39,516 nucleotides of DNA, taken from IMG/VR virus record IMGVR_UViG_3300030503_000053, positions 1 to 39,516 of that record. One strand, 5' to 3'. The notes under the pieces are model-generated. The model saw nothing but the letters and a program-made list of their open reading frames with translations. It did not search any database and had not been told where the DNA came from. The stretch is from a virus. Of the stretch, positions 6,865-37,873 are shown piece by piece. The position numbers and the translations under genes were made by a program. Positions within the stretch are counted from its first letter, which is position 1; each line of letters opens with the position of its first letter.

Positions 6865-8703
6865 CTAATACCCCGAGATACTATTTCGTATATTTCGCTT
6901 GTACTGATTCTTTCTTCGAAGAATTTCCATTTCAATCTCGTCAGTGTTAGTATCAAAATCCCATACTTGCGGCCCATAGCCCAAAGTATCGAGTACGTCA
7001 ACGAGTTTCCCGGCGGGATAGGTTTCAAATTCCTCGTGGAACTCTTCCATTCCCTTGCTATTAAGCCAAAATTCTCCGCGTTCAAAAATAGGTCCGAGAC
7101 CATCAATACGCATTTTCTTAGCATTCTTGGTCTTGGGAGTAATAAGCTCCTTGATGGTAAGGTTGCCATATCTAGGATCTCGTCTTCGTTCTTCTTTTAT
7201 TTTGTACTCTAAGTGGTACTTGAGGTATTTTTGAGCGGCGATTGTTTCCATGTATATACAATCAAGTTTCCACACCTCGACTGCGAGATATAACATTGTG
7301 TCGATGAACTCGTCTGTACCACAGGATTTAGCCCATACATCGAGTAAGTACACCCGTCTTGGATTCTCGGCCACTCCGGTAATAGTAATAGCATGTCTGC
7401 ACCTACCCTCATTGCCGCTATGATTAGGGTCTACGATCATGTAGCGTTTTAGATTACGTGGGGCGATATCTTCTTCTACGTCGCCTTCGTGAACCTTGTG
7501 CCGTATTAGAACTTTCTGCCGAACCTTAGTAGCACCATTCTTAGTCATTGGCGCGGCGTCGGTGTAAGTGAAATTGGAGTCTTTAATAAACTCATAATAC
7601 CTAAGACTACGCTTATCAAACTTTACCTCGGCCGGATTAATAGGTACATTAAGATACTGGCAGCTAAATAGATAAGAGCCGAGACGCTGCTTGTAACGAG
7701 CAAGCTTCTCCAAGTTGAATGCTTCTGGAAAAATTGGCACGCCGAAAGGGTGTAAAGAACAGCAGCCACCAAGGGCGCTATGAGTAGTAAAATTAAAATA
7801 CTGCTCATTACTGCGAATGTAGCTATTAAGATCCTTGTAGCTCCATCGGTTCCCGACAATAATCTCATCATTATCCCTACCACCATCATCTATTGCGGCG
7901 TCAAAGGCGCCCACGAGTAGTTGATGATACTCGATAGTTTTCTGCATCGTGGTGTCGGATTCAAATGCCGCTCTACCAACAAGATCATCTTGGATAACCA
8001 TATCGTAATGGCGAGATTGTAGGGCAGATCCCACACCGATAAAATCAAATGTTCCTTCACCTTGAATTCTACCAGCTTTAGTACGCATTTGATGTAGACT
8101 TTCATCATTTTGCGTACAGCTAGAATCAGGTAGTATTTCCGGGAAAAGATATTTGAACAGAGCATTATCTCTGTAATGTCCATAAAATCGCACACCAAGC
8201 TTCTTCGCATTGTTAATAACCTCGCTAACTAGTAGAATGCGAATATCTTGATTATGTACATACCTCATCCACTGGATGTATCTATCACCATGCCCCATAG
8301 CACGCATGTACAACTCATCCTCATAACTAAAAGGAAGCGCGCGCCACATTGGGTAGCATTCTGAGTAGACGGTAGATTTGAAATGGTCACGAGGTATCTC
8401 GATTACTTCTTTCAGGCCATCTTTCTCTACTACTTGGCACATCTGAAAGTGCATGTTTCTATCAGGATCGGGGTTCTTCTGGAACTTATTCTTGCCGAGA
8501 ATTACTGTTGCGAAGTAGAACAAAGACCCAAGAGCATTCAACCTATGAATAACCCGCATCGTTTTTTCATCGGGATGCGTAGGAGGTATTACTTTATACG
8601 ACCTCGTAACACTCGCCGGGAGATATAACCCACCCGTCTCGCTATACTCATACTCCGCGTTTTTGTCTAGGACGGCTTCTAAATCCTTCTGAGTATAGCT
8701 CAT
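6865..8703 (-). CDS. terL: Terminase large subunit
   Basis: 612 aa, the DNA-packaging motor ATPase plus headful or site-specific nuclease. A Walker A-like PRDHFKST lies at about residues 104-111, in the P-R-x-H-x-K-S form used by many terminases. A Walker B hydrophobic strand with acidic end (DMVIQDD, 234-240) follows. The RNase H-like nuclease domain begins near 420 with the strand YMIVDPNHSG, whose Asp at 425 is a likely metal ligand. Length is slightly long for the family. The RBS is weak (GTGG, 4 nt). It lies downstream of the small-subunit candidate as expected. The Walker A His in place of the more usual Gly is seen in related phage terminases. Confidence 0.9.
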   Translation of the reverse strand: MSYTQKDLEAVLDKNAEYEYSETGGLYLPASVTRSYKVIPPTHPDEKTMRVIHRLNALGSLFYFATVILGKNKFQKNPDPDRNMHFQMCQVVEKDGLKEVIEIPRDHFKSTVYSECYPMWRALPFSYEDELYMRAMGHGDRYIQWMRYVHNQDIRILLVSEVINNAKKLGVRFYGHYRDNALFKYLFPEILPDSSCTQNDESLHQMRTKAGRIQGEGTFDFIGVGSALQSRHYDMVIQDDLVGRAAFESDTTMQKTIEYHQLLVGAFDAAIDDGGRDNDEIIVGNRWSYKDLNSYIRSNEQYFNFTTHSALGGCCSLHPFGVPIFPEAFNLEKLARYKQRLGSYLFSCQYLNVPINPAEVKFDKRSLRYYEFIKDSNFTYTDAAPMTKNGATKVRQKVLIRHKVHEGDVEEDIAPRNLKRYMIVDPNHSGNEGRCRHAITITGVAENPRRVYLLDVWAKSCGTDEFIDTMLYLAVEVWKLDCIYMETIAAQKYLKYHLEYKIKEERRRDPRYGNLTIKELITPKTKNAKKMRIDGLGPIFERGEFWLNSKGMEEFHEEFETYPAGKLVDVLDTLGYGPQVWDFDTNTDEIEMEILRRKNQYKRNIRNSISGY

Positions 8704-15170: not shown

Positions 15171-15842
15171 ATGATAACATACGAATGTCCTAATTGTCGC
15201 AAGATGGCTGGAATATCTTTAGACTTAATATATTCAGAAAGATTCAAGAATTGGTCCTGCGATAATTGTTGGAAGTCTTATTCGGACAAATATCTGCGAG
15301 ACCAGAGAAAGGGTGAGATGAAAGAAGTAATTGTTAATACGACCGCGAACGGAACAATTTACGAACTGAAATTCAAAACCCTCCCGCGTAAGGGATACTT
15401 CGCGGAGAATATTCAACCGATCATTAACCTAATAAAGGCAATGATCCCAGCAACCGCACGGGAATATAACCCAAGCACATATACCTGGGGGCTTGGTGCT
15501 GAGTATTGGCCGCCGCTAAAAACCAGCATGGAGGCGCTTGGGTTTAAGATTACATTCTTAGATAAGCAACCCGCTAGTGGTCCGAAAGTGCATGTACCAA
15601 CGGATTATGCTGAGAATTTCTACTACACTGCACCAACTAGCACGAAGGAGTCTACACAATCAATTGCTGCTCAACTTAGTAGTTACTTGGGTGTAGAAAT
15701 AACCACCCAAGACTTATCAGACCTGAAGAAACTCTACCGCGCCAAAGCCCGCGAATATCACCCGGATATGGGTGGGGACGCCAAGAAGATGAGCGAGCTT
15801 AATAGACTCTGGACGCTCTACTCTAACAAGGAGGTAATGTAA
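15171..15842 (+). CDS. Zinc-ribbon protein with C-terminal J-domain
   Basis: 223 aa. Residues 6-9 (CPNC) and 30-33 (CDNC) form an N-terminal zinc ribbon. Residues about 60-130 form a separate domain with a P-x-x-x-R-x-YNPSTYTW core that recalls the HARP-like fold seen in some phage and helicase-associated proteins; this comparison is tentative. Residues about 165-220 are a J-domain: helix II (DLKKLYRAKAREY), the HPD tripeptide at 197-199, then GGDAKKMSELNRLWTLYSN as helix III. J-domains stimulate host DnaK ATPase, so this protein probably recruits DnaK to a phage target bound by the N-terminal domains. The AGGAG site is 7 nt before the ATG. The stop overlaps the next start as TAATG. Confidence 0.8.
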   Translation: MITYECPNCRKMAGISLDLIYSERFKNWSCDNCWKSYSDKYLRDQRKGEMKEVIVNTTANGTIYELKFKTLPRKGYFAENIQPIINLIKAMIPATAREYNPSTYTWGLGAEYWPPLKTSMEALGFKITFLDKQPASGPKVHVPTDYAENFYYTAPTSTKESTQSIAAQLSSYLGVEITTQDLSDLKKLYRAKAREYHPDMGGDAKKMSELNRLWTLYSNKEVM

Positions 15843-16498: not shown

Positions 16499-16676
16499 AC
16501 CTATTTACTATATTTATTATTGGTCAAAAGCCGGTTATTGGTATAAAAGTACAAGCACTTTTAATAAAGATATGGTCGAATGTTTGCGTGATAGCTATAG
16601 ACGTTGTGGCTGGGCTACAGCAGTAGAAAGAGGAATATGGACATCGACCGTGAATGCAGCGTATGCAAAGAGTTAG
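16473..16676 (+). CDS. 67-aa aromatic-rich protein
   Basis: 67 aa, with a strong AAGGGGG site 4 nt before the ATG. Very rich in Tyr and Trp (KPIYYIYYWSKAGYWYKSTS), then a short helix and a Trp-containing end. Strand pattern suggests a small beta-sheet protein. It overlaps both neighbours, like the other genes in this run. The function is unknown. Confidence 0.55.
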   Translation: MSDSKGSGKPIYYIYYWSKAGYWYKSTSTFNKDMVECLRDSYRRCGWATAVERGIWTSTVNAAYAKS

Positions 16677-17185
16677 CATCTTATTTCTGTCGCATGTGCT
16701 CCGCTCATTACTGCGCGGAGCATTTGTGCTTGCATCTATCAGTAGCGTGGGAATCTAATACATGGACGAATCGTAATAAAGGAGAATGGGATGAGAGTAC
16801 AGATGTACGAGAAAATGAACGAAGTGATAGCCCCACAGTATATTCACAAGAGAAGGCAGTACGAGATTTATTACCGCATACTCCAAAACTTGTGGGCACG
16901 TATACTGAAACGCAGTTACAAGCATCGTACCAGTTTTATCTGTCTCAAGCTAGAAGAGTGCGAACTGAGTTGGAGCGGCGTGCGGTACTTATTGAGGGTG
17001 CTTTACCACGCGAATCGAAGTCTGTTATATCATTTTCAAGGGGGAATGGAAGTAGAAGTCGTAGAAAGACTTTTCCAGCATCTGCCAGTAAACACATTCA
17101 AGTATTGCAAGATAACATCAGGACAGGTACAATATCCCTCGAACAAGTAACAGCCCGCATCCGCGCTGCTAGTGCTACTAAATAG
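16637..17185 (+). CDS. B-box-like zinc finger protein
   Basis: 182 aa from the ATG at 16637, with GAGG just upstream; an in-frame ATG at 16604 has no ribosome site. Residues about 7-32 show C-x2-C-x7-C-x2-C-x4-C-x2-H-x3-H, the ligand pattern of a B-box or ring-type zinc fold. After this come an acidic linker, a helical segment (QASYQFYLSQARRVRTELER) and a basic Ser/Arg patch, then a C-terminal helix (TISLEQVTARIRAASATK). The overall order resembles the gene at 19720 (N-terminal cysteine cluster, helix, basic linker, short helix), so the two may be distant paralogues. A long overlapping frame at 16791-17150 is discussed in the findings. Confidence 0.6.
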   Translation: MDIDRECSVCKELASYFCRMCSAHYCAEHLCLHLSVAWESNTWTNRNKGEWDESTDVRENERSDSPTVYSQEKAVRDLLPHTPKLVGTYTETQLQASYQFYLSQARRVRTELERRAVLIEGALPRESKSVISFSRGNGSRSRRKTFPASASKHIQVLQDNIRTGTISLEQVTARIRAASATK

Positions 17186-17227
17186 TAGTAGCAGCGTCAA
17201 TGTGCGCTTTTGCGTGCAGGAAAGAGA

Positions 17228-17905
17228 ATGAATATGAACGATTTGATTAAAAAACCCGCAACATTCCGAGTAGGCGCGAAGCCTCTATCAGGACTCGCCG
17301 CGCGTAAACAAGCGGCCGCGCTTGCTACTAACGAACCAATAGAAATCCCCGCGCACGAAATGGAACATCGCATCGGGATAGTATTTGATGATTCAGGTTC
17401 TATGGGCTCCGCGCAGATTGCAGATGCAAAAGCGGGAGTGGAGGAATTTCTTCGCAGCTGCGAAAAAGACAAAACCGCAGTAGCAATCTACCCAATGAAC
17501 ATGGAAGGAATCCCGCTTTGCAGTAATCTCCCAGCGGTCGCAGTATACGCACAGGGAATCTCAGCAACAGGCGGCACACCACTAGTGCGAACTGCTAATA
17601 ACATGCTGAACCAGAACAAGCTCACCCGCGCTATTATCTTCAGCGACGGCTCACCAACTGGCGATCGGGATATTGAGAAGTTGATCGCACACGGAGTACC
17701 GATTGATTGCGTATACATCCCGGATATGTATGTAGATGCAAGCGCAGAACAATTCATGCAAGAGCTTGCACGTAAGACCGACGGAATCTACTTACGATTC
17801 GAGCGTGGTAAATCTAACTTCCGTGCAGCTTTTAAGTACCTCAGTCCTGGACTCCGGTACATGCTTGCGGACAAAAGCTTCGTGAGTAAACTAGAAGGGC
17901 GTTAG
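17228..17905 (+). CDS. von Willebrand factor A domain protein
   Basis: 225 aa from the ATG at 17228 (AGGA 6 nt upstream; an ATG at 17234 and a TTG at 17210 are also in frame). Residues 45-200 are a vWA domain: strand 1 with the metal-ion-dependent adhesion motif FDDSGSMG, the loop threonine in ATGGTPLV and the third ligand in IFSDGSPTGD. All MIDAS ligands (D, S, S, T, D) are present, so metal-dependent protein binding is likely. The N-terminal 35 residues are basic and may be disordered. It lies three genes upstream of the FtsK-like ATPase. vWA proteins usually work with AAA+ or other P-loop ATPases, so a joint complex is conceivable but unproven. Confidence 0.82.
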   Translation: MNMNDLIKKPATFRVGAKPLSGLAARKQAAALATNEPIEIPAHEMEHRIGIVFDDSGSMGSAQIADAKAGVEEFLRSCEKDKTAVAIYPMNMEGIPLCSNLPAVAVYAQGISATGGTPLVRTANNMLNQNKLTRAIIFSDGSPTGDRDIEKLIAHGVPIDCVYIPDMYVDASAEQFMQELARKTDGIYLRFERGKSNFRAAFKYLSPGLRYMLADKSFVSKLEGR

Positions 17906-18077: not shown

Positions 18078-18268
18078 CAACACATGATAGAACTATAGCG
18101 CTATGCGACGAACTTTCGAAGATTTGTGATATTCTCATAGACCTAATTGGCCATGTAGAAAAGCTCAAATCCGAACAAGAAGAACTCCAAAAGCAAGCAG
18201 CCGAGCACGAGCAAGCAATTGTAGCTTTGAAAGAGAAGTTATTCTACGCCGGGATTGGTGATGATTAA
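18074..18268 (+). CDS. 64-aa coiled-coil protein
   Basis: 64 aa, AAGGAG 8 nt before the ATG, itself within ATGA. From residue 10 to 55 it is a continuous heptad-rich helix (HVEKLKSEQEELQKQAAEHE). The stop joins the FtsK-like start as TAATG, so it is strictly coupled to the ATPase and may be its partner or a multimerising adaptor. Confidence 0.6.
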   Translation: MTTHDRTIALCDELSKICDILIDLIGHVEKLKSEQEELQKQAAEHEQAIVALKEKLFYAGIGDD

Positions 18269-19350
18269 TGAGCGCCCTAACAACCGAACAATCCCAAACC
18301 GTACTTCACCTTTGCATGAAACTCTCCGCGCTCAAAATAAGCGGCGAGTTCAAGCAAGTAGAAGCCGGGCCGATAGTATCAACCTACTACTTCACACTTG
18401 GCGCGGATATTCCGATTGCTAAGATAATGAAATCTGAGGAGGACTTGGCGCTCGCAGTAGGGGCGCCGTCTGTACTTATAACCAGACTGGGGGCACAAAT
18501 TGCGATTGCGATTCCTAACAAGACAAAAGAAACAGTTAGTTACGATAAATGCCTGCACGCTCTTATGCAAAGCTCTGGACAAGGGCTTCCTATTATGCTC
18601 GGAGTTGATACTAAAGGTACTCCAAACACAATTGACCTGCGAGAATCTCCACACATTCTCGCAGCGGGTTCTACAGGCTCAGGTAAAAGTGTACTCCTTG
18701 CAGCTATCATTAGCGGTCTTGCGACTAAACTCTCTTCGAGAGAAATGAAACTAATGCTAGTTGATACTAAGCAATTAGACCTGCCGCTATTCGCATCCCT
18801 ACCACACACCGTAGAAGTCGCGGATGATATAGAGAAAATCTATGTTCTATTCGAACGCCTCATGCAAATAGTCCGACAGCGCACGGAAAAAATGAAAGGA
18901 GTAGCACGAAACATAACCGAGTACAACCGCATAACCGGCGCGGCACTACCATACTACGTAGTAGTAATCGACGAGTACGCAGATATCGTAGGCGCGGATA
19001 GTAGCATCGCGCTCAAGTTACAGAAGCTCGTCCAAATCTGCCGAGCCGCTGGAATCCATGTAATCCTTGCAACACAGCGGCCCTCAGTTAAAATCATAAC
19101 CGGCGATATCAAAGCGAACTTCGGTACTCGCATCGCACTAAAACTACCAACCGGCTACGATAGCAAAACAATCATTGATGAATATGGAGCCGAGCAGCTG
19201 CTAGGAAAAGGAGATATGCTATGCAAATTGAGTTCCGACGAACAAGTTACACGGTATCATGGTCCTATGCTAAGTATGGATCATATTTCAAACGTACTCG
19301 CTAATTGTGATGCGATTCGAGATAGTTACAAGCATTTGAAACTTAATTGA
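18268..19350 (+). CDS. FtsK/SpoIIIE-type DNA translocase, soluble
   Basis: 360 aa. Residues 25-90 match the FtsK alpha/beta modules (EAGPIVSTYYFTLGADIPIA; EEDLALAVGAPSVLI). The motor follows: Walker A GSTGSGKS at 134-141, Walker B VVVIDEYAD at 231-239, then ATQRPSVKIITGDIKANFGT at 268-287, the most diagnostic FtsK block, and GAEQLLGKGDML. There is no N-terminal membrane region and no C-terminal gamma winged helix, so it should be a cytosolic hexameric dsDNA pump without KOPS reading. Tailed phages package with terminase, so this motor must serve another step, such as resolving or moving replicated DNA, or acting on host DNA. It closes its operon: a strong terminator follows. Confidence 0.88.
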   Translation: MSALTTEQSQTVLHLCMKLSALKISGEFKQVEAGPIVSTYYFTLGADIPIAKIMKSEEDLALAVGAPSVLITRLGAQIAIAIPNKTKETVSYDKCLHALMQSSGQGLPIMLGVDTKGTPNTIDLRESPHILAAGSTGSGKSVLLAAIISGLATKLSSREMKLMLVDTKQLDLPLFASLPHTVEVADDIEKIYVLFERLMQIVRQRTEKMKGVARNITEYNRITGAALPYYVVVIDEYADIVGADSSIALKLQKLVQICRAAGIHVILATQRPSVKIITGDIKANFGTRIALKLPTGYDSKTIIDEYGAEQLLGKGDMLCKLSSDEQVTRYHGPMLSMDHISNVLANCDAIRDSYKHLKLN

Positions 19351-19719: not shown

Positions 19720-20331
19720 ATGGCTTCTGAGAAATACGGCGGAGATGTAATACCTTGCTGTGCGGCCTGTGACATAATACCAGACGGTACGAAAATTTGC
19801 ACTAAGTGTGCGGTCGTATTTTGCAAACACTTTGCGTCATCAACAGATGTGCGGTACTGCGCGAATTGCATAAGCGACTTCACCATAAAGGAGACTATTA
19901 TGGAGAAGATTGTAGAGCATGAAAGGCCTGATGGAACTGTTACATTCTCCCGGAAGTACCAAGCAAGGCATATTACTTTGCAGGGAACAGATTGGTTATT
20001 TGCCGCACATAAGATAGAGGAGATGACGGATGCGGAGATTGAAGCGTCGATAGAATATCATCGCGCTAATGTTGGACTGATGTTACAAGAGCGAGAGAGT
20101 AGGAAGCTGGAGAGATTTAAGAAGCTTTCTGGAATCAAACTCGTGCATGAGAAGCATGAATCTCAGTTTGATAGAGAGAAGCGCGAGTCAAAAAGTAGCG
20201 GGAAGAAAACGCGCACTAAGGTTAAAGAGAAAGAAGTAACTGGCGAGCAGCTACTACAGATGCTTCAGACTTTAGCTAAGAGCGGATTGAGTATGGAGCA
20301 AATTACTGGAATACTAGGAGGGAAGAAGTAA
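19720..20331 (+). CDS. Cysteine-cluster protein with basic helical tail
   Basis: 203 aa, with GGGGAG 8 nt before the ATG. Residues 13-50 contain CCAAC, CTKC, a C at about 35 and CANC, up to eight ligands, suggesting two zinc ions in a FYVE- or B-box-like arrangement. After a strand-rich segment comes a long charged helix (MTDAEIEASIEYHRANVGLM...), a Lys/Ser/Arg-rich linker and a short C-terminal helix (GLSMEQITGILGGKK). The layout resembles the gene at 16637. It is the second gene of the replication operon. Nucleic-acid or protein binding is likely; no enzyme motif is present. Confidence 0.6.
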   Translation: MASEKYGGDVIPCCAACDIIPDGTKICTKCAVVFCKHFASSTDVRYCANCISDFTIKETIMEKIVEHERPDGTVTFSRKYQARHITLQGTDWLFAAHKIEEMTDAEIEASIEYHRANVGLMLQERESRKLERFKKLSGIKLVHEKHESQFDREKRESKSSGKKTRTKVKEKEVTGEQLLQMLQTLAKSGLSMEQITGILGGKK

Positions 20332-20705: not shown

Positions 20706-21752
20706 ATGAACATAGCAGATGCAGTGAGCAAGTTCCATTGGATGCAGCTTGGAGAAGATGGCGTTGTTGAGATGTTCCTCGACCATCACTCACTCGCAAC
20801 CTTCCGTAGTTGCGAGGCCAGCTTTGAGCTTTCCATGATGGCTAATATCAAAGGAAAGCATAAAAGCTGGAACCTTGAGTTCGGTATTGTGTTTCATAAG
20901 ATGGTTGAGTTGTTCTACATTGGCAAACGCGATGAAACATTTGAGTTCAATGATTGGCTGAGCAAGGCTTGCTACTACTGGCATCTGTATAATATTGATA
21001 GCCAGTTCGAAGAGCATAAGATGTACAAAACTCTTGGAGGCTTGCACGGATTCCTAGCAATGCTTGGCCAGTACGCAACTCATTTCGCAGCGGAAGTAGA
21101 TCGGCTCCGGGTTATTGGAATCGAGATTACTTTTGGTAAGAAGCGGGAGGTTCCACTGGGGGAATTTCAGGTAAGTGAGTATTATACTCAGGGGAATGTT
21201 AAAGGATTCCAGTTCGGAAGTAAGGAAGTACGCTGCTACCTAACCGGGCGCATCGACTTTTTAATGGACTCCGGGAATGCAATCGGGCCATTAGATCACA
21301 AGACCACTGCATTTTTTAAGGGTTCCCCAAGTGCAAGCTACGACCCGCAAGAGGGGATGACCGGATACGTTTACGCGACTAACTATATTCTAAAAAGTCG
21401 ATTCCCTGAGCTATTAGCTGGGCGCAAAGTAGATCGTATCTGGATGAACTTCGCACAAATAACCCCGCAAGCTGATCCGATGCAGCGTTTTAAAAGAGTC
21501 CCACTATTCAAAACGGAGTGGCAACTTGAAGAATACAGAAAACGACAACTCAGAACTTTTCATAAAATATACGATATGGTCGTGCTTGGCGAAAGACCGG
21601 ATTGGAATACAAGTGTATGCAACAATATGTTCCACTCCGAATGCCAGTACAGGAATTTACACAGGCAAAATAGTAGCAGTAACATGCTCAACATCTTGAA
21701 CCAAGACTTCGTAGTAGCAGAACCTTGGAACCCAGAAGAAATGGAGGATTAA
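20706..21752 (+). CDS. PD-(D/E)XK nuclease, RecB/Cas4-like
   Basis: 348 aa. The catalytic core is visible at residues about 181-200: GRIDFLMDS (Asp 184), then PLDHKTT (Asp 197, Lys 199), the GxxD...DxK pattern of the RecB/Cas4-type exonuclease family. An N-terminal FRSCEASFEL (33-42), the usual RecB-family entry helix, is present. Cysteine 36 and a distal pair including CQYRNLH (about 315) could bind an iron-sulfur cluster as in Cas4/AddB, with one ligand uncertain. In phages such nucleases pair with a Sak4-type annealing ATPase and a single-strand-binding protein, both encoded downstream. The stop overlaps the next start (TAATG). Confidence 0.82.
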   Translation: MNIADAVSKFHWMQLGEDGVVEMFLDHHSLATFRSCEASFELSMMANIKGKHKSWNLEFGIVFHKMVELFYIGKRDETFEFNDWLSKACYYWHLYNIDSQFEEHKMYKTLGGLHGFLAMLGQYATHFAAEVDRLRVIGIEITFGKKREVPLGEFQVSEYYTQGNVKGFQFGSKEVRCYLTGRIDFLMDSGNAIGPLDHKTTAFFKGSPSASYDPQEGMTGYVYATNYILKSRFPELLAGRKVDRIWMNFAQITPQADPMQRFKRVPLFKTEWQLEEYRKRQLRTFHKIYDMVVLGERPDWNTSVCNNMFHSECQYRNLHRQNSSSNMLNILNQDFVVAEPWNPEEMED

Positions 21753-22187: not shown

Positions 22188-22970
22188 ATGCCATACGAAA
22201 ACATAAGCGGATTAATAGATATCGAAGCAGAGCCGAGACTAAAGATCGCGGTAGTAGGAGTTCCAAAGGTGGGTAAAAGCTGGTTTGCTTATACCTCGCC
22301 GGCGCCGGTATGGAGTTTTGATTTCGATACTAGAAGCGAGAGTTTGAAGGAGTTTTGCTCTAAGTATAAGCGTACAGACGTAGAAGGAAAGTCTTACTGG
22401 GACAAAGACCCAAACATCCCAACAGCTATGCAGGCAGTTGAAACAGATATCAGCATGTTCGAGTATCTAAAGCAGCAAGGAAAAACAACCCCTGCTACTT
22501 ATATACTCGATAGCATGACTTTTATGAGAGCGGTGATGGAGCATGAACTCATCAAACAGCAACCGTCTTTTTGTAGAAAAGTTAAAATTAACTCCACAGA
22601 AATTAAGATCCCGGCTGGTTGGGATGTCATTAATGGAGTTCGTGCATACATGGAGTATATCATCGGACGGCTATCTGAACTCGGTCATGTCATCGCAGTA
22701 TTTCACGAAGCCGATGAGACAGATAAACAGAAATCTACCAAAGAGCAAAAAGCTTACACGGGATTAAAAACAGTACAACCTCCGTACCTAGCGACCGTGC
22801 TTAGTTTATTTAATGACGTATTCCGAATAACGGTTGACTACTCCGGCGCACGTATCGTTCAGTGCCAGCCTAATTCAGATTTCACAGCTTCTACCAGCAT
22901 GAAACTTGATGCTACAGAAGCTCCCGATATTATGCAGATGCTCGCTAAACACAAGCAACGCTCGGCATAG
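22188..22970 (+). CDS. Sak4-like RecA-fold ATPase (AAA_24)
   Basis: 260 aa. Walker A is GVPKVGKS at 24-31, followed by the strand PVWSFDFDTRSE, and Walker B-like TYILDSMTF. This is the layout of the phage Sak4/AAA_24 group, single-strand annealing or RecA-like recombination ATPases that act with an SSB and an exonuclease. The neighbours agree: a RecB/Cas4-like nuclease upstream and an SSB-like protein downstream. The C-terminal end is a short amphipathic helix. The strand-exchange activity is inferred from the family. Confidence 0.8.
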   Translation: MPYENISGLIDIEAEPRLKIAVVGVPKVGKSWFAYTSPAPVWSFDFDTRSESLKEFCSKYKRTDVEGKSYWDKDPNIPTAMQAVETDISMFEYLKQQGKTTPATYILDSMTFMRAVMEHELIKQQPSFCRKVKINSTEIKIPAGWDVINGVRAYMEYIIGRLSELGHVIAVFHEADETDKQKSTKEQKAYTGLKTVQPPYLATVLSLFNDVFRITVDYSGARIVQCQPNSDFTASTSMKLDATEAPDIMQMLAKHKQRSA

Positions 22971-23034: not shown

Positions 23035-23535
23035 ATGGGTTTTCAAATGAAGGTCTCCAATGAGAAGCTCGAAGGTATGGATGTTTTTCCGGCTGGCCAG
23101 TACGATGTAAAGCTAGTAGGTTTTAAGCCCAACAAAGCTAAGACCGGTTCTACTAACTTGAACGCGATGATGGTAGTTCATGGGCATCCAGATTTTGCGA
23201 ATCGGAAGTTGTATGATTCGTTGAATGTGGGCGGCGCGTTTACTTATCCTGATTTCTCGCACTGCTTCGGCTTGCCAATGGAGACGGACGGAAAAGATAG
23301 CTGGTTGCCGGGAGAGTGGAATGGCGATCCTGCTAAGTTTAAGGAAGATGATCCTACTACTTGGGTCTATAAAGGGCCGCTGGTTGGCAGGATTGGTAAA
23401 GTGGAAGTAGCAGTTGATAACTACAACGGCAAGGACAATAACAAAATCCGTCGGTACTTCTGCGCGGTTCCTGATTGCGCTACGAAGTTCCCGAAGATTC
23501 GGCATATTGCGGATTTGCTGAAGAAGAGCAGCTAA
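23035..23535 (+). CDS. Single-stranded DNA-binding-like protein
   Basis: 166 aa, AAGAGG upstream of the ATG. The start MGFQMKVSNEKLEGMDVFPA followed by GQYDVKLVGFKPNKAKTGST is the common opening of phage DUF669/SSB-like proteins (P-x-G-x-Y-x-V, then a strand with a K-x-G-x-x-N turn). Predicted beta strands suggest an OB-fold-type barrel, and the Lys-rich C-terminus (IRHIADLLKKSS) differs from the acidic tail of bacterial SSB. In its place next to the Sak4-like gene, an SSB function is the most likely. A short hairpin follows. Confidence 0.65.
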   Translation: MGFQMKVSNEKLEGMDVFPAGQYDVKLVGFKPNKAKTGSTNLNAMMVVHGHPDFANRKLYDSLNVGGAFTYPDFSHCFGLPMETDGKDSWLPGEWNGDPAKFKEDDPTTWVYKGPLVGRIGKVEVAVDNYNGKDNNKIRRYFCAVPDCATKFPKIRHIADLLKKSS

Positions 23536-23734: not shown

Positions 23735-23924
23735 ACTTAACAAAGTAGGAATTAACGCGCTGGAGTATCGGGGCATGTCAGATAATACTATGCTGATGAT
23801 CCTAAACCAAGACGGCGACCAGCCAATTGTAACTCGGCGCGCTATTAGGTGGCTCTGCATTCAAGTACTAGGACAGTATGGTTATGAGTTTGAGGTAGAT
23901 GATAATGCCACTTCTAGGAAGTAA
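23697..23924 (+). CDS. 75-aa protein overlapping the acidic gene
   Basis: I place the start at the ATG at 23697 (GAGG 6 nt upstream), giving MPTTNPNTKTKIKLNKVGIN, then a helical domain (EYRGMSDNTMLMILNQDGDQ, TRRAIRWLCIQVLGQYGYEF). An upstream ATG at 23655 would add 14 Lys-rich residues read in the frame opposite the acidic tract, which I consider artefactual. The end overlaps the exonuclease gene by 20 nt. No family recognised. Confidence 0.55.
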   Translation: MPTTNPNTKTKIKLNKVGINALEYRGMSDNTMLMILNQDGDQPIVTRRAIRWLCIQVLGQYGYEFEVDDNATSRK

Positions 23925-25032
23925 AGGCAATCCGACAAGTCCGGTGTGGGTGCTGGTAGATAGACCATTGTCAGGTGACGAGGACAAGGGATATCTATTT
24001 AGTGCCCCCACCGGATACGTCTGGGACAAGATGATGCAAGAGGCGGGGATTAAAGATTACTATGTTACTGGCTATCGCCGGGACACAGATAACCTCAAAG
24101 GCTGGTCCAACGTAGCAGGAGACTTAGAGCACTACCGACCGCCTATTATTATCCCACTCGGACATACTGGTAAGAACCTGCTAAACCAGATGAACCCGAA
24201 GTATTTGAAGAAAAAAGGCTCCTTCGACACCGCGAACGAAGAATCAGAGATTAGCAAGTACGCCGGCTCAATCCTAACAAGCACTCACCTCAACTATTCC
24301 CACTACATAATCCCAACCGAGCATCCCGTAGATGTAATCAAGCAGTGGAAGATGCGGGATATTGTTATTAACTGTGACCTAGCAAAAGCCGCTAGTGAAC
24401 TTGAATACTGGAAAAGCCATGCATGTACTCTTCAGCCACTTCCAGAACGGACTCATAAAATACAGTTTGATTGCTTTGAAGAACTTCTTTGTGATATTGA
24501 CAATATGCTCAATTGTCCTATTGTTAGTAACGATATCGAAACTATTTACCCAAAAGCGCCAACTAAAACGCAGCCATCTCAATTCTACAAAATCCTACCC
24601 GGCTATCCTATTACCGCTTCTTTCGCTAGTAGTGCAAGCTTTAGCATTAGTTTTGACTTTTTTCGTGAAAGTACTATTGAGACACGAGAGCTTTGGAAGC
24701 ACCTTGCAAAACTCATGTGGGAAGTCCCTAGTCTCGGTCAGAATTTCTTCAACTTCGACGCCAACTTCTACGAAGCCTTGGGTTTTAGAATCGACCTTAG
24801 TAGATGTAGAGATACTTTGATTAATCATCATTTGCTCTGGGCGGAGCTAAAGCATACGTTGCAGTTCCAGACGCGGCAGTATACTAGGGAGCCGTACTAT
24901 AAAGACGAAGGGCATGGGTGGAACATTAAAGATATGCGGCAGCTAAAGATTTACAACTGCAAAGATACTATGGTTACTTATGAGATTTATGAGTGCCAAC
25001 TATTAGAATTAGCAGAGAGAGGATTACTATAA
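23905..25032 (+). CDS. UDG-like domain fused to polymerase-type 3'-5' exonuclease
   Basis: 375 aa from the ATG at 23905 (GAGG 9 nt upstream; 23899 is an alternative). Residues about 15-160 resemble the uracil-DNA-glycosylase superfamily fold: VWVLVDRPLSGDEDKG, PTGYVWDKMMQEAGI, IIPLGHTGKNLL and PTEHPVDVI, but without a clear catalytic set. From about 205 there is a DnaQ-like exonuclease: Exo I SNDIETIYP (D210, E212), Exo II QNFFNFDANF (D285), Exo III NCKDTMVTYEI (D354). This matches the N-terminal and proofreading parts of SPO1-type phage polymerases. The polymerase domain is absent here and is encoded by a separate gene at 26585. Confidence 0.78.
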   Translation: MPLLGSKGNPTSPVWVLVDRPLSGDEDKGYLFSAPTGYVWDKMMQEAGIKDYYVTGYRRDTDNLKGWSNVAGDLEHYRPPIIIPLGHTGKNLLNQMNPKYLKKKGSFDTANEESEISKYAGSILTSTHLNYSHYIIPTEHPVDVIKQWKMRDIVINCDLAKAASELEYWKSHACTLQPLPERTHKIQFDCFEELLCDIDNMLNCPIVSNDIETIYPKAPTKTQPSQFYKILPGYPITASFASSASFSISFDFFRESTIETRELWKHLAKLMWEVPSLGQNFFNFDANFYEALGFRIDLSRCRDTLINHHLLWAELKHTLQFQTRQYTREPYYKDEGHGWNIKDMRQLKIYNCKDTMVTYEIYECQLLELAERGLL

Positions 25033-26584: not shown

Positions 26585-28138
26585 ATGCAGAAGAACAGAA
26601 TAAGCATGGAATACTTGCACGCGCTACAAGCGGTATACTACCAAATAGATCGACGCGGTATAGTAGTAGACAAGCAGAGGCTACGAGATGCATCACACTA
26701 TATTGATACAGACATTAATCGTCAATGCGCTATTGTCAGTAGTATCTGGAACATACCTTGCTACATCGGAGCCGCAAACAAACCGGAAGCTAAACTTGGG
26801 AGTAGTATTAATCTTAACAGCAGCAGCGGTGATAATACCCCTCTCGCACACTTAAAGCGGATGGGATTTACAATACCAAAGACAAGTGGGAGGGATGAGG
26901 ATGGAAACTACATATCAAAAGAATCTCTTGCGGAACTTACCCTGCAAAAGATATATGCAACAAATCAATTTAACGTCCCGGGAGGAGATCCAGCAATTAG
27001 GGCGCTTCTTAGAATACGTGAACTTGGAACTCTCCGAGCGCGCTACATTAATGCAAACCTCTATCGTTCAGGAGGGTTCGAGTTATTTCTTACAAATTAT
27101 AATTGCGCAGGAACAGTTACAGGACGCAGGGGAAGCCGCAAACATTCTTTCGGTTTTGGGGGGAATGCACAAAATTTTCCAAAGCATGGAGAGCTTGCTA
27201 AGATATTTCGTAGATGCTTAGTAGCCCGCCCCGGTAAAATCCTACTAATGGTAGACCAGATGCAAGCCGAGGACTGGCCTACTAGCGCACTAGCTAATAA
27301 CACGGAGGCACTTGATGACTTACGTTCTGGTATTGATAGGCATAGGAAGTTGGGTTGCCTTATATTTGATATCCCCTGGGACCACTATACAGACTCTCAG
27401 TGGAAAGAATCTATTGAGCGATTCCTTGGCAAGAAAACTAGACACGCTAATAACTATGGTATGCGTGGCGGTACTATGTCTGACTCACTTGCTAAGGAAG
27501 GCTATTCACTAACTCCCCAACAATGCACCAACATCCTCACGAAAGTAAACCAAGTTGACCCCTCCGTAGACGGAGTATTTCACAAATACATAAAGGACTG
27601 CTTATATGCGAATCGAACGCTCCGGACACCGTTTGGACGTGAACGTATCTTCTTCGGCCTCCGAGGTGGTGAAACAGGCTCGAATAATAAAATCTTCAAC
27701 GAAGCTTACAGCTACATTCCTCAATCTACAGTTGGCGATAATAACGGATTTGCAGTCTATGAACTTGAAACCGGAAATGACTCCACACGAGGTAAAATTA
27801 TTCAAGAATGCCATGACTCAATCGTTCAGGAGATTGACGATTCTGTTGAATCTATCTGGAACTTTATGCAAGTCACAAAAGCGGCGTATTCTCGTAGAAT
27901 CGTATTCCACAATGGGATTGAAGTTGAAATCCCAGTCGAAGGAGAAATTGCCTTTGACTTCTACAACACAGTAACTATTAAAGCTAGGAATGGCTCCAAA
28001 AAGCTGGAAGACATTACCTATCAAGATGTGCAAGCGGCTTACTACAAGTTAAAAGAGAATCAAGAAAAGGAGCGCCAGTCAGATGCCGCCACGCAAACTC
28101 AGCATGAACTGGATCAGCAGCTATGCGGCGGCGCTTGA
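26585..28138 (+). CDS. Family A DNA polymerase, polymerase domain only
   Basis: 517 aa. Motif features, in order: TVTGRRGS (177-184), the QNFPK block (196-200), motif A LLMVDQMQAEDWPTSALA with catalytic Asp 224 (usual form DYSQIELR), motif B KKTRHANNYGMRGG (283-296), and motif C ECHDSIVQEI with catalytic Asp 411 (usual form VHDE). Both metal-binding aspartates are retained. The exonuclease is on a separate polypeptide (23905-25032), so the holoenzyme is presumably assembled from two chains. Motif B is divergent: the Phe is Tyr as in T7 polymerase, but the usual Lys and downstream Tyr are replaced. The start at 26585 has GAGG 4 nt upstream. It overlaps the helicase gene by 56 nt. Confidence 0.85.
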   Translation: MQKNRISMEYLHALQAVYYQIDRRGIVVDKQRLRDASHYIDTDINRQCAIVSSIWNIPCYIGAANKPEAKLGSSINLNSSSGDNTPLAHLKRMGFTIPKTSGRDEDGNYISKESLAELTLQKIYATNQFNVPGGDPAIRALLRIRELGTLRARYINANLYRSGGFELFLTNYNCAGTVTGRRGSRKHSFGFGGNAQNFPKHGELAKIFRRCLVARPGKILLMVDQMQAEDWPTSALANNTEALDDLRSGIDRHRKLGCLIFDIPWDHYTDSQWKESIERFLGKKTRHANNYGMRGGTMSDSLAKEGYSLTPQQCTNILTKVNQVDPSVDGVFHKYIKDCLYANRTLRTPFGRERIFFGLRGGETGSNNKIFNEAYSYIPQSTVGDNNGFAVYELETGNDSTRGKIIQECHDSIVQEIDDSVESIWNFMQVTKAAYSRRIVFHNGIEVEIPVEGEIAFDFYNTVTIKARNGSKKLEDITYQDVQAAYYKLKENQEKERQSDAATQTQHELDQQLCGGA

Positions 28139-29315
28139 TCCAATAACCGAAGCGCCATCTGCGTATGTAATTTGGAGTGCAATCTCAGTAATAAGTGCAG
28201 TTCTAAAAAAGAAAGTATGGGTACGTCGTGGAACCTACAAAGTATACCCAAATCAGTACATTGTTCTCGTTGGACCGCCCGGCGTTGGGAAGGGAACAGC
28301 AATCCATCCAGCTCATTCGTTCATTAAGGACTACAAACCTGCTCTCAGCAACTACCTTTCCGATCGTATTACGGCGCCTAAAATCATTGAAAAGCTTGCA
28401 AACGGATTCCAAACCAACGCAGTAGTAAATGGTATGGTAACAACCGCTACTGAAAGCACTGCGGTACTAATGGCAACGGAGCTTAGTACTTTCCTTGGTT
28501 CCTCAGATTGGATGACAAGTTTCCTATGTGACACATGGGATAGAAATGAGTTTGAATATGACACTAAGAATAAGGGCAGCAGCCACATTAAGGACATGTG
28601 CGTTAGCCTTATTGGTGCTTGCGTACCAGATTTTATTAGGAAAATCAACGGGAATAAAAACGCTGCAGAAGCTATTAACGGTGGGTTTACCGCTAGAACG
28701 ATGTTTGTATTTGCTAATGAGAAGTCCAAGAAGCTGGCTTGGCCAGTCGCACTTGAAGATACTACTGGCGGAAAGGAAATAATTGCAAACCTCCGCCACG
28801 ATCTTGAACAAATCGCGCACGTACATGGCGAATTTACATTCGACAATGAGGCTTATCACGAATGGATTGCATTTTATAAAACTATCAATGCTACAGATTC
28901 TGATTCGGATGTTGTAAGATACTTCAAATCAAGGCAGGATATTCATGTCCTTAAAGTCGCAATGTGTCTTAGTGCAGCTAGTGACAATCTCCTTGTTATT
29001 AACCGATGGTGTTTGACGACAGCTATAGCTCTAGTTCAGGGGGTGTTAGATACACTTGACATTACCTTTAGAGGAGTAGGGGAATCATCACTATCAGAGG
29101 CAACGGCAAAATTGCAGACGTACATTGAGAGAAAGGGCCTTTGTTCGAGACGGGAACTTATTCGGGATTGTCATAGACACGCTACGGTTGAAGATATAGA
29201 TAGAATTATAAATACATTATTACAGATAGGACTAATTACTAACAAGATCGTAGGTGGCACTCAGTTCTATGAGTACGTACACACGACTAAAAAGAAAGTG
29301 GTACAAATGCCATGA
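28083..29315 (+). CDS. DUF3987-like primase/helicase-type ATPase
   Basis: 410 aa. Walker A GPPGVGKGT lies at 64-72, after IWSAISVISAVLKKKVW, which is typical of the DUF3987/YfjI-type helicase-like proteins that open with a conserved W-A-x-I-S-A-x-x. Later blocks (TTATESTAVLMATELSTFLG; GGFTARTMFVFANE) match the sensor and arginine-finger region of this group. The C-terminal winged-helix-like segment (LCSRRELIRDCHRH) may bind DNA. It is the probable replicative helicase; no separate primase is visible. AAAAGGAG lies 10 nt before the ATG, inside the polymerase gene; ATG 28104 is an alternative. Confidence 0.75.
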   Translation: MPPRKLSMNWISSYAAALDPITEAPSAYVIWSAISVISAVLKKKVWVRRGTYKVYPNQYIVLVGPPGVGKGTAIHPAHSFIKDYKPALSNYLSDRITAPKIIEKLANGFQTNAVVNGMVTTATESTAVLMATELSTFLGSSDWMTSFLCDTWDRNEFEYDTKNKGSSHIKDMCVSLIGACVPDFIRKINGNKNAAEAINGGFTARTMFVFANEKSKKLAWPVALEDTTGGKEIIANLRHDLEQIAHVHGEFTFDNEAYHEWIAFYKTINATDSDSDVVRYFKSRQDIHVLKVAMCLSAASDNLLVINRWCLTTAIALVQGVLDTLDITFRGVGESSLSEATAKLQTYIERKGLCSRRELIRDCHRHATVEDIDRIINTLLQIGLITNKIVGGTQFYEYVHTTKKKVVQMP

Positions 29316-29734
29316 GGATGCGGAGAGGAAGCCCATTAGAGAATTACTGGATAGTACTTGAAAATAGTTGTTGGGAGTGGCAAGGCTCTAAGTGCAAACG
29401 TGGCTATGGTAGATATCGAGTTGGCAGTACCATAAAACAAGCGCACAGAGTTGTGTATGAAAAATACAAGAAGAAGAAGATAGAATCTGGGCTGGAACTA
29501 GACCACAAATGTAGAAACCGCGCTTGTGTGAACCCTGACCATGTAGAAGAATTGACACATCTAGAAAATGTTTTAGTTGGTGAAACTACAAAGTTAAAAG
29601 AATTTGAAGTAAAACTTATTAGGGATCTATGGGAACATGGTAAAGTTTCTCAGGGAGAACTGGCTATTAAGTTTAAAGTAAGTCAATCAAATATCTCTGA
29701 TATTATAACCAGAAAGACTTGGAGAAATATATAA
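29312..29734 (+). CDS. HNH endonuclease (HNH_3 type), free-standing
   Basis: 140 aa, coupled to the helicase gene by ATGA. The HNH_3 pattern is complete: CWEWQGSKCKRGYGRY (20-35), AHRVVYE (44-50), ELDHKCRNRACVNPDHVE (62-79) with His 65, Asn 74 and His 77, then LTHLENV. The C-terminus is an AP2/HTH-like tail (VSQGELAIKFKVSQSNISDI). This is the form of phage-borne homing endonucleases. It interrupts no obvious intron or intein here; as a free-standing mobile gene it may cut related phages at this locus. Confidence 0.88.
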   Translation: MRMRRGSPLENYWIVLENSCWEWQGSKCKRGYGRYRVGSTIKQAHRVVYEKYKKKKIESGLELDHKCRNRACVNPDHVEELTHLENVLVGETTKLKEFEVKLIRDLWEHGKVSQGELAIKFKVSQSNISDIITRKTWRNI

Positions 29735-30315
29735 TGAGTTTCAATGAGCAAGGCCCAGAGCTAGTAGACCGTCCGTCCAAACCCCTTGAAGTATCACTGG
29801 AAGTTGAAAACGTAATCTTCGTAGTCGGTGGTAAATTCGGACTCGAAGCAGTTGAGGATAAAATTCTTATTCTTATTGACAAATACAAGAGCGGCTACGA
29901 GTGCCATGATTGTGATGGTACTGGAGTTTTCAATAGCTGCGACTGCACAAAGAAAGGAACCTTCGGGATTAAAGAAAATGGAAAAACCTGCACCTTCCGA
30001 GAAGCTTGCGCCAAACAAACCGTCGGCACAAAATGCCTACGATGCAATGGTACAGGATCAACGCTTATTGTGCCAGAGAATACGCGAGCAATCCCTACGT
30101 CTGGAGTTATCGTTAGCTGCGGCCCGAAAGTCAAGACGAGAAGAATTGGAGAGCGTGTGCTCTTTGGTGCTCACACAGGCTATTACCTTCCCTTCAAGGG
30201 AAACGCTAAAATTAGATGTATGAGAGAGGACGAGCCACTCTGCAAAATCCTAGCAGTAGAAACCGGCCCGGTTAGTTTGGACGACTTTCTTAGTATCGAG
30301 GAGATGCAATCGTGA
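29734..30315 (+). CDS. GroES-like co-chaperonin with inserted DnaJ-type zinc finger
   Basis: 193 aa from the ATG in TAATG. A first strand at about 41-52 (EDKILILIDKYKS) matches the start of GroES. Residues 57-108 hold a zinc domain with two DnaJ-type CxxCxGxG motifs, C57-HDC-DGTG64 and C101-LRC-NGTG108, plus C69, C71, C86 and C92. GroES-like sequence resumes: RAIPTSGVIVSCGPKV, GERVLFGAHTGYYLPFKG, then EDEPLCKILAVE. The insert sits where the mobile loop that touches GroEL begins. Proposed role: phage-specific folding factor acting with host GroEL (compare T4 gp31), with the zinc domain binding unfolded substrate. The N-terminal 35 residues are an acidic extension. Family call good; interaction inferred. 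Confidence 0.75.
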   Translation: MSFNEQGPELVDRPSKPLEVSLEVENVIFVVGGKFGLEAVEDKILILIDKYKSGYECHDCDGTGVFNSCDCTKKGTFGIKENGKTCTFREACAKQTVGTKCLRCNGTGSTLIVPENTRAIPTSGVIVSCGPKVKTRRIGERVLFGAHTGYYLPFKGNAKIRCMREDEPLCKILAVETGPVSLDDFLSIEEMQS

Positions 30316-36504: not shown

Positions 36505-36602
36505 GAGGGCCACCAGTAAGCGTCGTTATTAAATCCAAGGAAGTTATAGTCTAGGAACCAATGGGTCTCTATGCAGTGAAGGTCTTCATTCCCGTCTTTC
36601 AT
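36498..36602 (-). CDS. 34-aa aromatic peptide coupled to ATP-grasp gene
   Basis: ATG at 36602 overlaps the ATP-grasp stop as ATGA (36602-36599). Its stop at 36500-36498 overlaps the tailspike start. The product begins MKDGNEDLHCIETHWFLDYN and ends NDAYWWPSC; it is rich in W, Y, D and N with two cysteines. GGGA lies about 5 nt upstream. It is too short for a domain, but its two-sided coupling argues for translation. It may be a small tail or regulatory peptide, or a substrate of the adjacent ligase, which is speculation. Confidence 0.5.
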   Translation of the reverse strand: MKDGNEDLHCIETHWFLDYNFLGFNNDAYWWPSC

Positions 36603-37873
36603 AGCAGTCCCATTCTACTAAGTTCATAGTATCTCTGAGTCGTGGTCTTCTGTAGGTCAGTGCGGATTTGCATATTAGGGAGCTTGATATCCTCGATCTT
36701 TGCGTCTACTATCTCCCACGCATCTCCAATGCTATTTCCGTAGCCAAGTGGAACCGCGATAAATCCACTATGCCCTGCTGTTACTAGCTCGCCCTTCTCC
36801 AACATAACATCATACATATAAGTAGAACCATACTGCCCAGGCCCTATTCCTTTTACCGGCACTCCCTGCGGATGCTTGCCCTTAATCTCGGTAGGATACG
36901 GCGGAATACTAAGACGAGTCCCGGCTCCGAACTCGCCACGCCAACTCTCATCCGGCACTTGCCCAGTTGCTACTTTCTGAAGCATCTCGCCAAAGTTTCC
37001 GCCGTACATATTAATAAGAGTCGCACTTGCATCATACCCAAAACGCGGAGTCCACTCTAGCCCGTAGAGTCCAGAATCAGTTGCAATAGTATTAAGATCA
37101 ATCATTCCACAATAGCCGACGCTCTTTAGATAGTCCTTCATCTTGCCAAGACCATTCTTGAATAGCTCGCTGGACTCCCGCAAGTAGAACACCAGATTCC
37201 CGGCACAACCAGTATTCGGTCCGTGATTCCCGTTCATAAACTTCTTTTCTTCTAGGGTCACATTTACTAAGTAGAAGTTATCCCCATTAAAATACCCCTC
37301 TACTGATACCTCGGTGCCCTTAATAAACTCCTGCAATACAAACGGAGCGCCCTTAGTTTTAGCATAAAGCTTATCAATACAAGCCAGCATATCTTCAGGA
37401 CTACTGGCTACATAAGTAGTATCAGTATCATTCTCCTGCCCGCCATCTGGTTTGTATACGAACCTCTTATTCGTCTTCTTAATATGCGCCTTAGCAGCAC
37501 CTAGCTCGGAAAATCTTTCATATGGCGGCACTTGTATTCCGCACTCCTCCATAGCTTCCAGACCAAACATTCTATCATCTTCAACAGCACAATTAAAAGC
37601 GCCATCGCCAATAGTAGGACAGAGCGTTGCGCTATACTCTGCTTGACGCTCGCGCCCAGTGAGATCGAAGATACTAAGATCGTATTTCCCATAATTAGGA
37701 TACCCTTTACTACCGCGCGCCCGGATATAAGGAGAAGGGACTATGCCTTTGAGAATGTTCTCGTAATCTGGTTCTGTGAGGAATGTATCTACTTTGTGCC
37801 CTTCTTCGAGCAGCCGCAAAGCAAACCAAAACCCATAGCCAGTGTAACTATTAAGTGCAATCCTCAATGCCAT
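36599..37873 (-). CDS. PurD-like ATP-grasp ligase
   Basis: 424 aa. The N-terminal nucleotide-binding region starts RIALNSYTGYGFWFALRLLE, with a GxG turn as in PurD. The ATP-grasp core includes FVYKPDGGQENDTDTTYV (ATP-binding strand with Lys), FVLQEFIKGTEVSVEGYF (the E-x-E/S-V-E block), GNHGPNTGCAG (compare PurD GPNTGGMG) and LEWTPRFGYDASATL (Mg-binding Glu and Arg/Asn region). The C-terminal domain resembles the PurD end (VDAKIEDIKLP). PurD makes glycinamide ribonucleotide from phosphoribosylamine, glycine and ATP; this distant paralogue may join a carboxylate to another amine. AAGGGAG lies 8 nt before the ATG. It lies inside the virion operon, not in a nucleotide-metabolism operon. Confidence 0.82.
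   Translation of the reverse strand: MALRIALNSYTGYGFWFALRLLEEGHKVDTFLTEPDYENILKGIVPSPYIRARGSKGYPNYGKYDLSIFDLTGRERQAEYSATLCPTIGDGAFNCAVEDDRMFGLEAMEECGIQVPPYERFSELGAAKAHIKKTNKRFVYKPDGGQENDTDTTYVASSPEDMLACIDKLYAKTKGAPFVLQEFIKGTEVSVEGYFNGDNFYLVNVTLEEKKFMNGNHGPNTGCAGNLVFYLRESSELFKNGLGKMKDYLKSVGYCGMIDLNTIATDSGLYGLEWTPRFGYDASATLINMYGGNFGEMLQKVATGQVPDESWRGEFGAGTRLSIPPYPTEIKGKHPQGVPVKGIGPGQYGSTYMYDVMLEKGELVTAGHSGFIAVPLGYGNSIGDAWEIVDAKIEDIKLPNMQIRTDLQKTTTQRYYELSRMGLL

Follow-up and report, generated by a model that had tools for sequence, protein, structure and literature searches.

Motors of the FtsK family are known to carry out packaging, segregation and transfer of DNA in cells, conjugative plasmids and membrane-containing phages. 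The recombination systems lambda Red and RecE/RecT have, to our knowledge, no dedicated dsDNA motor, and AddAB and RecBCD, in which an AddB/RecB-kind PD-(D/E)XK nuclease works with a motor, rely on SF1 helicases that unwind DNA, whereas FtsK-type motors pump dsDNA. Soluble FtsK proteins are already known in phages that possess a terminase, namely mycobacteriophages, Bacillus phages and the podovirus AP-20-A; the function of the Omega-group mycobacteriophage protein remains unclear (PMC3706429), and concatemer or packaging work has been suggested for that of AP-20-A (PMC13299392). Archaeal HerA-NurA, with a motor of the same superfamily and encoded together with mre11-rad50, is implicated in end resection, its exact role being debated (PMC12977600). 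Concerning the physical joining of a nuclease to such a motor, the closest published case found comes from defence operons, where a 3'-5' exonuclease is joined to HerA/FtsK (PMC10853773).

The window, that is the whole stretch of DNA analysed here (39,516 nucleotides, a viral record of 39.5 kb without end repeats), contains one ORF predicted to encode a motor of the FtsK/SpoIIIE family with its motifs intact, in an uninterrupted frame that starts with ATG. Its Pfam matches are to FtsK_SpoIIIE (PF01580, 2e-30) and FtsK_alpha (PF17854, 7e-9, above cut-off), one to DUF87 is under its cut-off, and its PHROG match is PHROG_1358, 'FtsK/SpoIIIE-like' (1e-74). Its parts are the following.

18268..19350, plus strand: soluble FtsK-type dsDNA motor, 360 aa, alpha and beta domains, assigned from Pfam, PHROG, the structural model and fold matches
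18286..18519, plus strand: FtsK alpha domain, residues 7-84 (PF17854, E 7e-9)
18667..18690, plus strand: Walker A, GSTGSGKS, residues 134-141; G134, G139 and K140 invariant in 52 viral motors
18955..18975, plus strand: Walker B, YVVVIDE, residues 230-236; D235 and E236 invariant in 52 viral motors
19069..19086, plus strand: ATQRPS block, residues 268-273; T269 and Q270 invariant and R271-S273 nearly so in 52 viral motors
19186..19221, plus strand: GAEQLLGKGDML block, residues 307-318; A308, L311, G315 and D316 invariant in 52 viral motors

The signature blocks that a preliminary description of this DNA had reported are therefore all there, in agreement with the Pfam and PHROG matches, and the alpha domain can be added to that account: since it is present, the ORF holds the whole motor. 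An AlphaFold2 model built with 51 viral relatives reached a mean pLDDT of 95.9; in fold comparison it comes closest to the FtsK motors of E. coli and P. aeruginosa (TM 0.89-0.91), including the dsDNA-bound structures 6t8b, 6t8g and 6t8o, which are cryo-EM rings with dsDNA or a dsDNA end. The conjugation motor TcpA is a weaker match (TM about 0.65), HerA defence complexes also stand among the weaker ones, and against HerA the TM score is about 0.44-0.50, so that the motor does not class as HerA-type. Compared with the FtsK of P. aeruginosa and E. coli (2iuu, 2ius, 6t8b), the full alpha plus beta motor fold, Walker A and B and the family motifs are shared, but the window motor is phage-encoded, has no membrane domain, linker or gamma domain, and is about 30% identical. 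It presumably forms a hexamer and translocates. The protein begins only a few residues ahead of the alpha domain, and about 16 residues follow the motor; with both termini so close to the motor domains, neither a membrane part nor a gamma part could fit. Both had been said to be missing: the N-terminal membrane domain of the cellular chromosome-segregation FtsK is absent from the ORF, and the gamma domain (PF09397) has no match anywhere in the record at E <= 10, so that no split gamma was found either.

In this record the minus strand carries capsid, portal and terminase genes on the left side and fibre-like genes on the right. Between these flanks lies a plus-strand block with genes for a J-domain protein, a VWA protein, the motor, a Cys-rich protein, DUF3310, a PD-(D/E)XK nuclease, a Sak4-like protein, a DUF669 SSB, DNA polymerase I (two ORFs) and a primase/helicase-like protein. 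The elements that enter the argument are listed here.

6865..8703, minus strand: terminase large subunit, a separate packaging motor (phrog_38, 5e-52)
17210..17905, plus strand: VWA-domain protein (VWA_2, E 4e-5, under the curated cut-off)
19720..20331, plus strand: Cys/His-rich protein between motor and nuclease, conserved in the group, no Pfam match
20706..21752, plus strand: PD-(D/E)XK nuclease, AddB/RecE-like (PF12705, 2e-9; phrog_1218 exonuclease; E140, D184 and D197-x-K199 conserved)
22188..22970, plus strand: Sak4-like single-strand annealing protein (phrog_124, 8e-9; AAA_24, 4e-10)
23035..23535, plus strand: DUF669 single-strand binding protein (PF05037, 7e-4, just under cut-off)

A soluble FtsK motor is accordingly found, as the preliminary description had it, in a phage that also has a terminase, together with a portal and a major capsid protein (HK97/Mu-type capsid genes). 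The Sak4-type gene adjoins the DUF669 SSB gene, as in Sak4-SSB recombination modules; DUF669 is a Sak4-linked SSB, a known type of Sak4 partner (PMC5928155), and Sak4 is described as required for replication of some Staphylococcus phages (PMC5499656).

Several other features of the record deserve mention in their own right. The stretches 16604-17185 and 19720-20331, which flank the VWA-motor pair, both start with similar Cys/His-rich (B-box-like) sequences, and at 15171-15842 a J-domain-like C-terminal stretch (DnaJ, 7e-5, under cut-off) is conserved upstream of the VWA gene. The phage's DNA polymerase I falls into two ORFs, 23899-25032 and 26585-28138, about 1.5 kb apart, which match consecutive parts of phrog_17 (482-825 and 836-1275), and both halves recur in related contigs. 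At 29312-29734 a MarR-like HTH is joined to an HNH endonuclease domain; 29719-30315, which has no Pfam match, resembles by eye a co-chaperonin of the GroES type that carries a DnaJ-like CxxCxG zinc finger; and 36599-37873 encodes an ATP-grasp (GARS_A-like) enzyme, with fibre-like genes on one side and a possible internal virion protein on the other.

To evaluate the conservation of the block, contigs were retrieved with the nuclease alone (the count includes contigs from the first search). The motor lies upstream of the nuclease in all 22 of the 22 retrieved contigs that have more than about 3.2 kb of upstream sequence, down to 24% nuclease identity, and the seven contigs without a motor all begin within 3 kb of the nuclease. 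Where within reach, the order is constant: VWA, motor, Cys-rich protein, nuclease, Sak4, SSB, Pol. Judging by these sequences, the motor is a core gene of the window's phage group; the count shows the entire block moving as a unit and is no evidence of contact between motor and nuclease. In 13 of the 13 window-type loci examined, including the deep member L037, the VWA gene is the first conserved gene on the upstream side of the motor.

The nuclease itself is predicted to have a PD-(D/E)XK fold with an intact catalytic motif, E140, D184 and D197-x-K199 being invariant in an alignment across three lineages. Its model (pLDDT 84.8) matches AddB, AdnA, Cas4-like proteins, MGME1, RecB and RecE in Foldseek, with AddB, AdnA, RecB and RecE as the best matches. 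The nucleases of the three motor clades show only remote similarity to one another (hhalign E 5e-5, probability 66%), and the window nuclease is only a distant relative of the nuclease domains described in the following paragraph.

In another clade, PDDEXK_1 and FtsK_SpoIIIE occur in a single open frame, the nuclease N-terminal and a gamma-less motor C-terminal (for example L007/L086). This fusion, visible directly in the open frames, was seen in 11 of the 50 records searched with Pfam models. The fused motors form one clade (15 tree rows, SH-aLRT 100), so that the fusion arose once and has persisted while its carriers diverged strongly. Every one of the 17 fused loci has a RecT-like gene on the upstream side: in 13 it is of the phrog_148/PF03837 type, mostly touching or overlapping the fusion gene, and in the other four a second RecT-like type overlaps it by 4 nt. 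The distance is at most 430 nt, or there is overlap, in 15 of the 17, and 1.8-2.4 kb in L082 and L050. Fused phages such as L086 also encode a terminase. In the GenBank phage collection the fusion is not matched over at least 80% of its length by any record. A YqaJ exonuclease was considered as a general partner of the motor and rejected, being present in only 3/50 records. By eye, GroEL-like ORFs were noticed a few kb downstream of the fusion (L050:15477-16985, L074:13392-14975).

A third motor clade (L039, L047, L051, L081; 4/5 loci) is followed downstream by genes for a primase-like zinc-ribbon protein, an Mre11-like phosphoesterase, a Rad50-like ATPase and a PD-(D/E)XK nuclease. In the Omega-type mycobacteriophages Bobby and WXIN one small gene separates the motor from Ku, in opposite orders. 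When motors were compared for a nearby PF12705 nuclease, it was found with 22 of 30 that have no C-terminal extension and with none of 17 that have one (raw Fisher 4e-7), an association of gamma loss with the nuclease that rests on about four tree changes and is not significant in a phylogenetically corrected test, which with so few origins has no power. There is no PF12705 nuclease near the gamma-less phage motors L021, L029, L033 and L034, and no annotated end-processing neighbour within 6 kb in Bacillus phage Grass, cyanophage CrV-01T and Stenotrophomonas phage TS-12. Independent origins of the motor-nuclease association are few.

Like those of the Omega group, AP-20-A and Bacillus Herelleviridae, the window motor is soluble, of FtsK type, encoded by a tailed phage that has a terminase, and a member of the same PHROG (PHROG_1358), and since soluble FtsK in terminase phages was already described, the motor protein itself is of a known sort; Omega-type proteins, however, keep a divergent gamma domain, while the window group has none and lies beside nuclease, Sak4 and SSB. 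The likeness to HerA-NurA of archaea and Deinococcus-Thermus would consist in a ring dsDNA translocase of the same superfamily working with a nuclease; motor and nuclease are separate linked genes in the window group and fused in the other clade. The differences are that the motor is FtsK-type, that the nuclease is PD-(D/E)XK and not NurA, and that the partners are phage annealing proteins, where archaeal HerA-NurA has Mre11-Rad50 in the same operon (PMC12977600). As in lambda Red, RecET and Sak4-SSB modules, a nuclease, a single-strand annealing protein and an SSB stand in one block; unlike in lambda Red or RecET, a phage FtsK motor is part of the module or fused within it. With AddAB and RecBCD the window shares a nuclease of their kind beside a motor, although the motors differ as noted above. 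Neither a phage protein joining FtsK to PD-(D/E)XK, as seen here beside RecT, nor a gamma-less motor within a nuclease-Sak4-SSB block turned up in the literature searched, with most subscription journals outside it.

From these data it is possible to hypothesize that the window encodes a gamma-less, soluble FtsK-type dsDNA translocase, presumably hexameric, that serves the recombination/replication module of the phage, a reading that we hold to be the most likely of those weighed here and to which we give about even chances. The motor probably feeds DNA ends into recombination and not into virus particles, because it sits in a recombination cluster and distant relatives fuse the motor to a DNA-trimming nuclease. 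The ring would load onto dsDNA at or near an end and run along the duplex without sequence polarity, no KOPS reading being expected since there is no gamma domain. With the PD-(D/E)XK nuclease driven or delivered along the DNA by the ring, one strand would be resected; the DUF669 SSB would take the exposed single strand and Sak4 would anneal it, and annealing would prime recombination-dependent replication, giving concatemers to be packaged later by TerL. Contact between motor and nuclease in the window phage, the strand polarity and the role in replication are what we infer in this scheme. The working mode may be like that of HerA-NurA though FtsK-built. More tentatively, several tailed-phage groups may have made an end-resection machine from a gamma-less FtsK motor, coupled or fused to a PD-(D/E)XK nuclease and handing strands to RecT or Sak4, in parallel with HerA-NurA and RecBCD. 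In favour of the end-processing reading we count the complete motor, the conserved block, the nuclease fusion with its RecT-like neighbours, the Mre11-Rad50-like and Ku neighbours in other motor lineages, the AddB/AdnA/RecB/RecE-like fold of the window nuclease, the precedent of archaeal HerA-NurA and the purifying selection on the motor. It counts against this reading that in the window motor and nuclease are separate linked genes with two genes between them, and that the VWA gene, also conserved, lies nearer to the motor; adjacency alone is weak evidence, because phage replication genes cluster anyway.

The main rivals of end processing are housekeeping at forks and concatemers and a machine centred on the VWA protein. 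In the former, as suggested for AP-20-A, the motor would strip proteins from replicating phage DNA or disentangle it, with the nuclease unlinked. The motor gene's place in a replication module, with Pol, primase/helicase and SSB genes close by, is in keeping with this, and both Pope et al. (PMC3706429) and the AP-20-A authors (PMC13299392) assume translocation on phage DNA; however, it leaves unexplained the nuclease fusion and the RecT, Mre11-Rad50 and Ku neighbours of the other motor clades, and we judge it unlikely, if worth keeping in view. Breakdown of host DNA or conflict between elements, with motor and nuclease degrading host or rival DNA, is suggested by the HerA/FtsK-superfamily motor-nuclease pairs of defence systems, including the fused 3'-5' exonuclease (PMC10853773), and by the HerA defence complexes among the weaker fold matches. 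Here, though, the neighbours are the phage's own annealing and SSB genes and the block is core to the phage group, not variable, which makes this explanation improbable.

The preliminary description had proposed a purpose other than packaging, and this was supported: packaging as the main role was rejected, terminase and portal being present, and it is unlikely because the motor gene lies in the replication/recombination block, on the strand opposite to the packaging genes, in every related contig. Its own suggestions, segregation of concatemers, DNA movement at the membrane or plasmid-like transfer, found no support. These are jobs that FtsK-family motors do elsewhere, and TcpA does appear among the weaker fold matches, but its TM of about 0.65 compares with 0.9 for FtsK; the record has no membrane anchor and no gamma/KOPS reader, no Xer/tyrosine recombinase partner was found in it and no relaxase was recognised among its ORFs. 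In membrane-containing phages an ATPase of FtsK/HerA type is the only packaging motor and there is no terminase, whereas the window record has terminase, portal and capsid, so that the motor is not the sole packaging motor. Conjugation motors (TcpA/TraB) combine a membrane anchor or recognition domain with transfer genes; the window motor has no membrane part. Accessory packaging, segregation at the membrane and plasmid-like transfer taken together have, in our estimate, a low probability, and the neighbours and the fused relatives speak instead for processing of DNA ends, in which a nuclease and a protein that anneals single strands would take part.

The usual partner of VWA proteins is a MoxR-type AAA+. 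The VWA protein stands beside the FtsK motor without obvious reason, and the pair could be a separate remodelling or loading machine, with VWA as adaptor, independent of recombination. In favour of such a pair, none of the 13 window-type loci has another conserved gene closer to the motor than VWA; nevertheless, no VWA-motor pairing was seen outside the window clade and the motor is FtsK-type, not MoxR-type AAA+, and we think this explanation very unlikely.

Phylogeny had been proposed as the test for a recent, decaying copy of a host FtsK. In a tree of 100 motors, the window-type motors form a deep, virus-only group, and the closest cellular FtsKs found are about 37-38% identical to the window motor. 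From codon comparisons the gene is under purifying selection, with dN/dS about 0.12 in unsaturated pairs (L002-L004 0.058/0.50; L002-L014 0.199/1.61); the window motor against L002 gives 0.14, with dS near saturation. A neutral passenger or decaying host copy is hardly credible, and we reject it because of this selection, the virus-only deep clade and the conservation, with all motifs intact and a core position.

Concerning the rarity of such motors, the preliminary description was right about a soluble motor in a terminase phage, but the case is less unusual than it supposed: 233 records of the GenBank phage collection have a motor match, some of them mislabelled host contigs. We did not generalise from these matches, since several of the top ones are host contigs filed as phage: clearly so H14 and H15, and probably also H1 and the contigs from Listeria and Staphylococcus. 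It should also be noted that L010 (CAKLQH020000030.1), which carries minCDE, ftsK and trxB, and L012 (OR846645.1) are filed as phage, resemble pieces of host chromosome and distort searches for phage FtsK.

The nuclease-motor fusion beside RecT, together with the conserved motor-nuclease-Sak4-SSB block, gives a directly testable hypothesis for phage FtsK proteins that have long been annotated. If it is true, a third type of motor, after SF1 helicases and HerA, would take its place among DNA-end resection machines, and phages may possess self-contained, motorised recombination modules, which would be of interest for DNA engineering.
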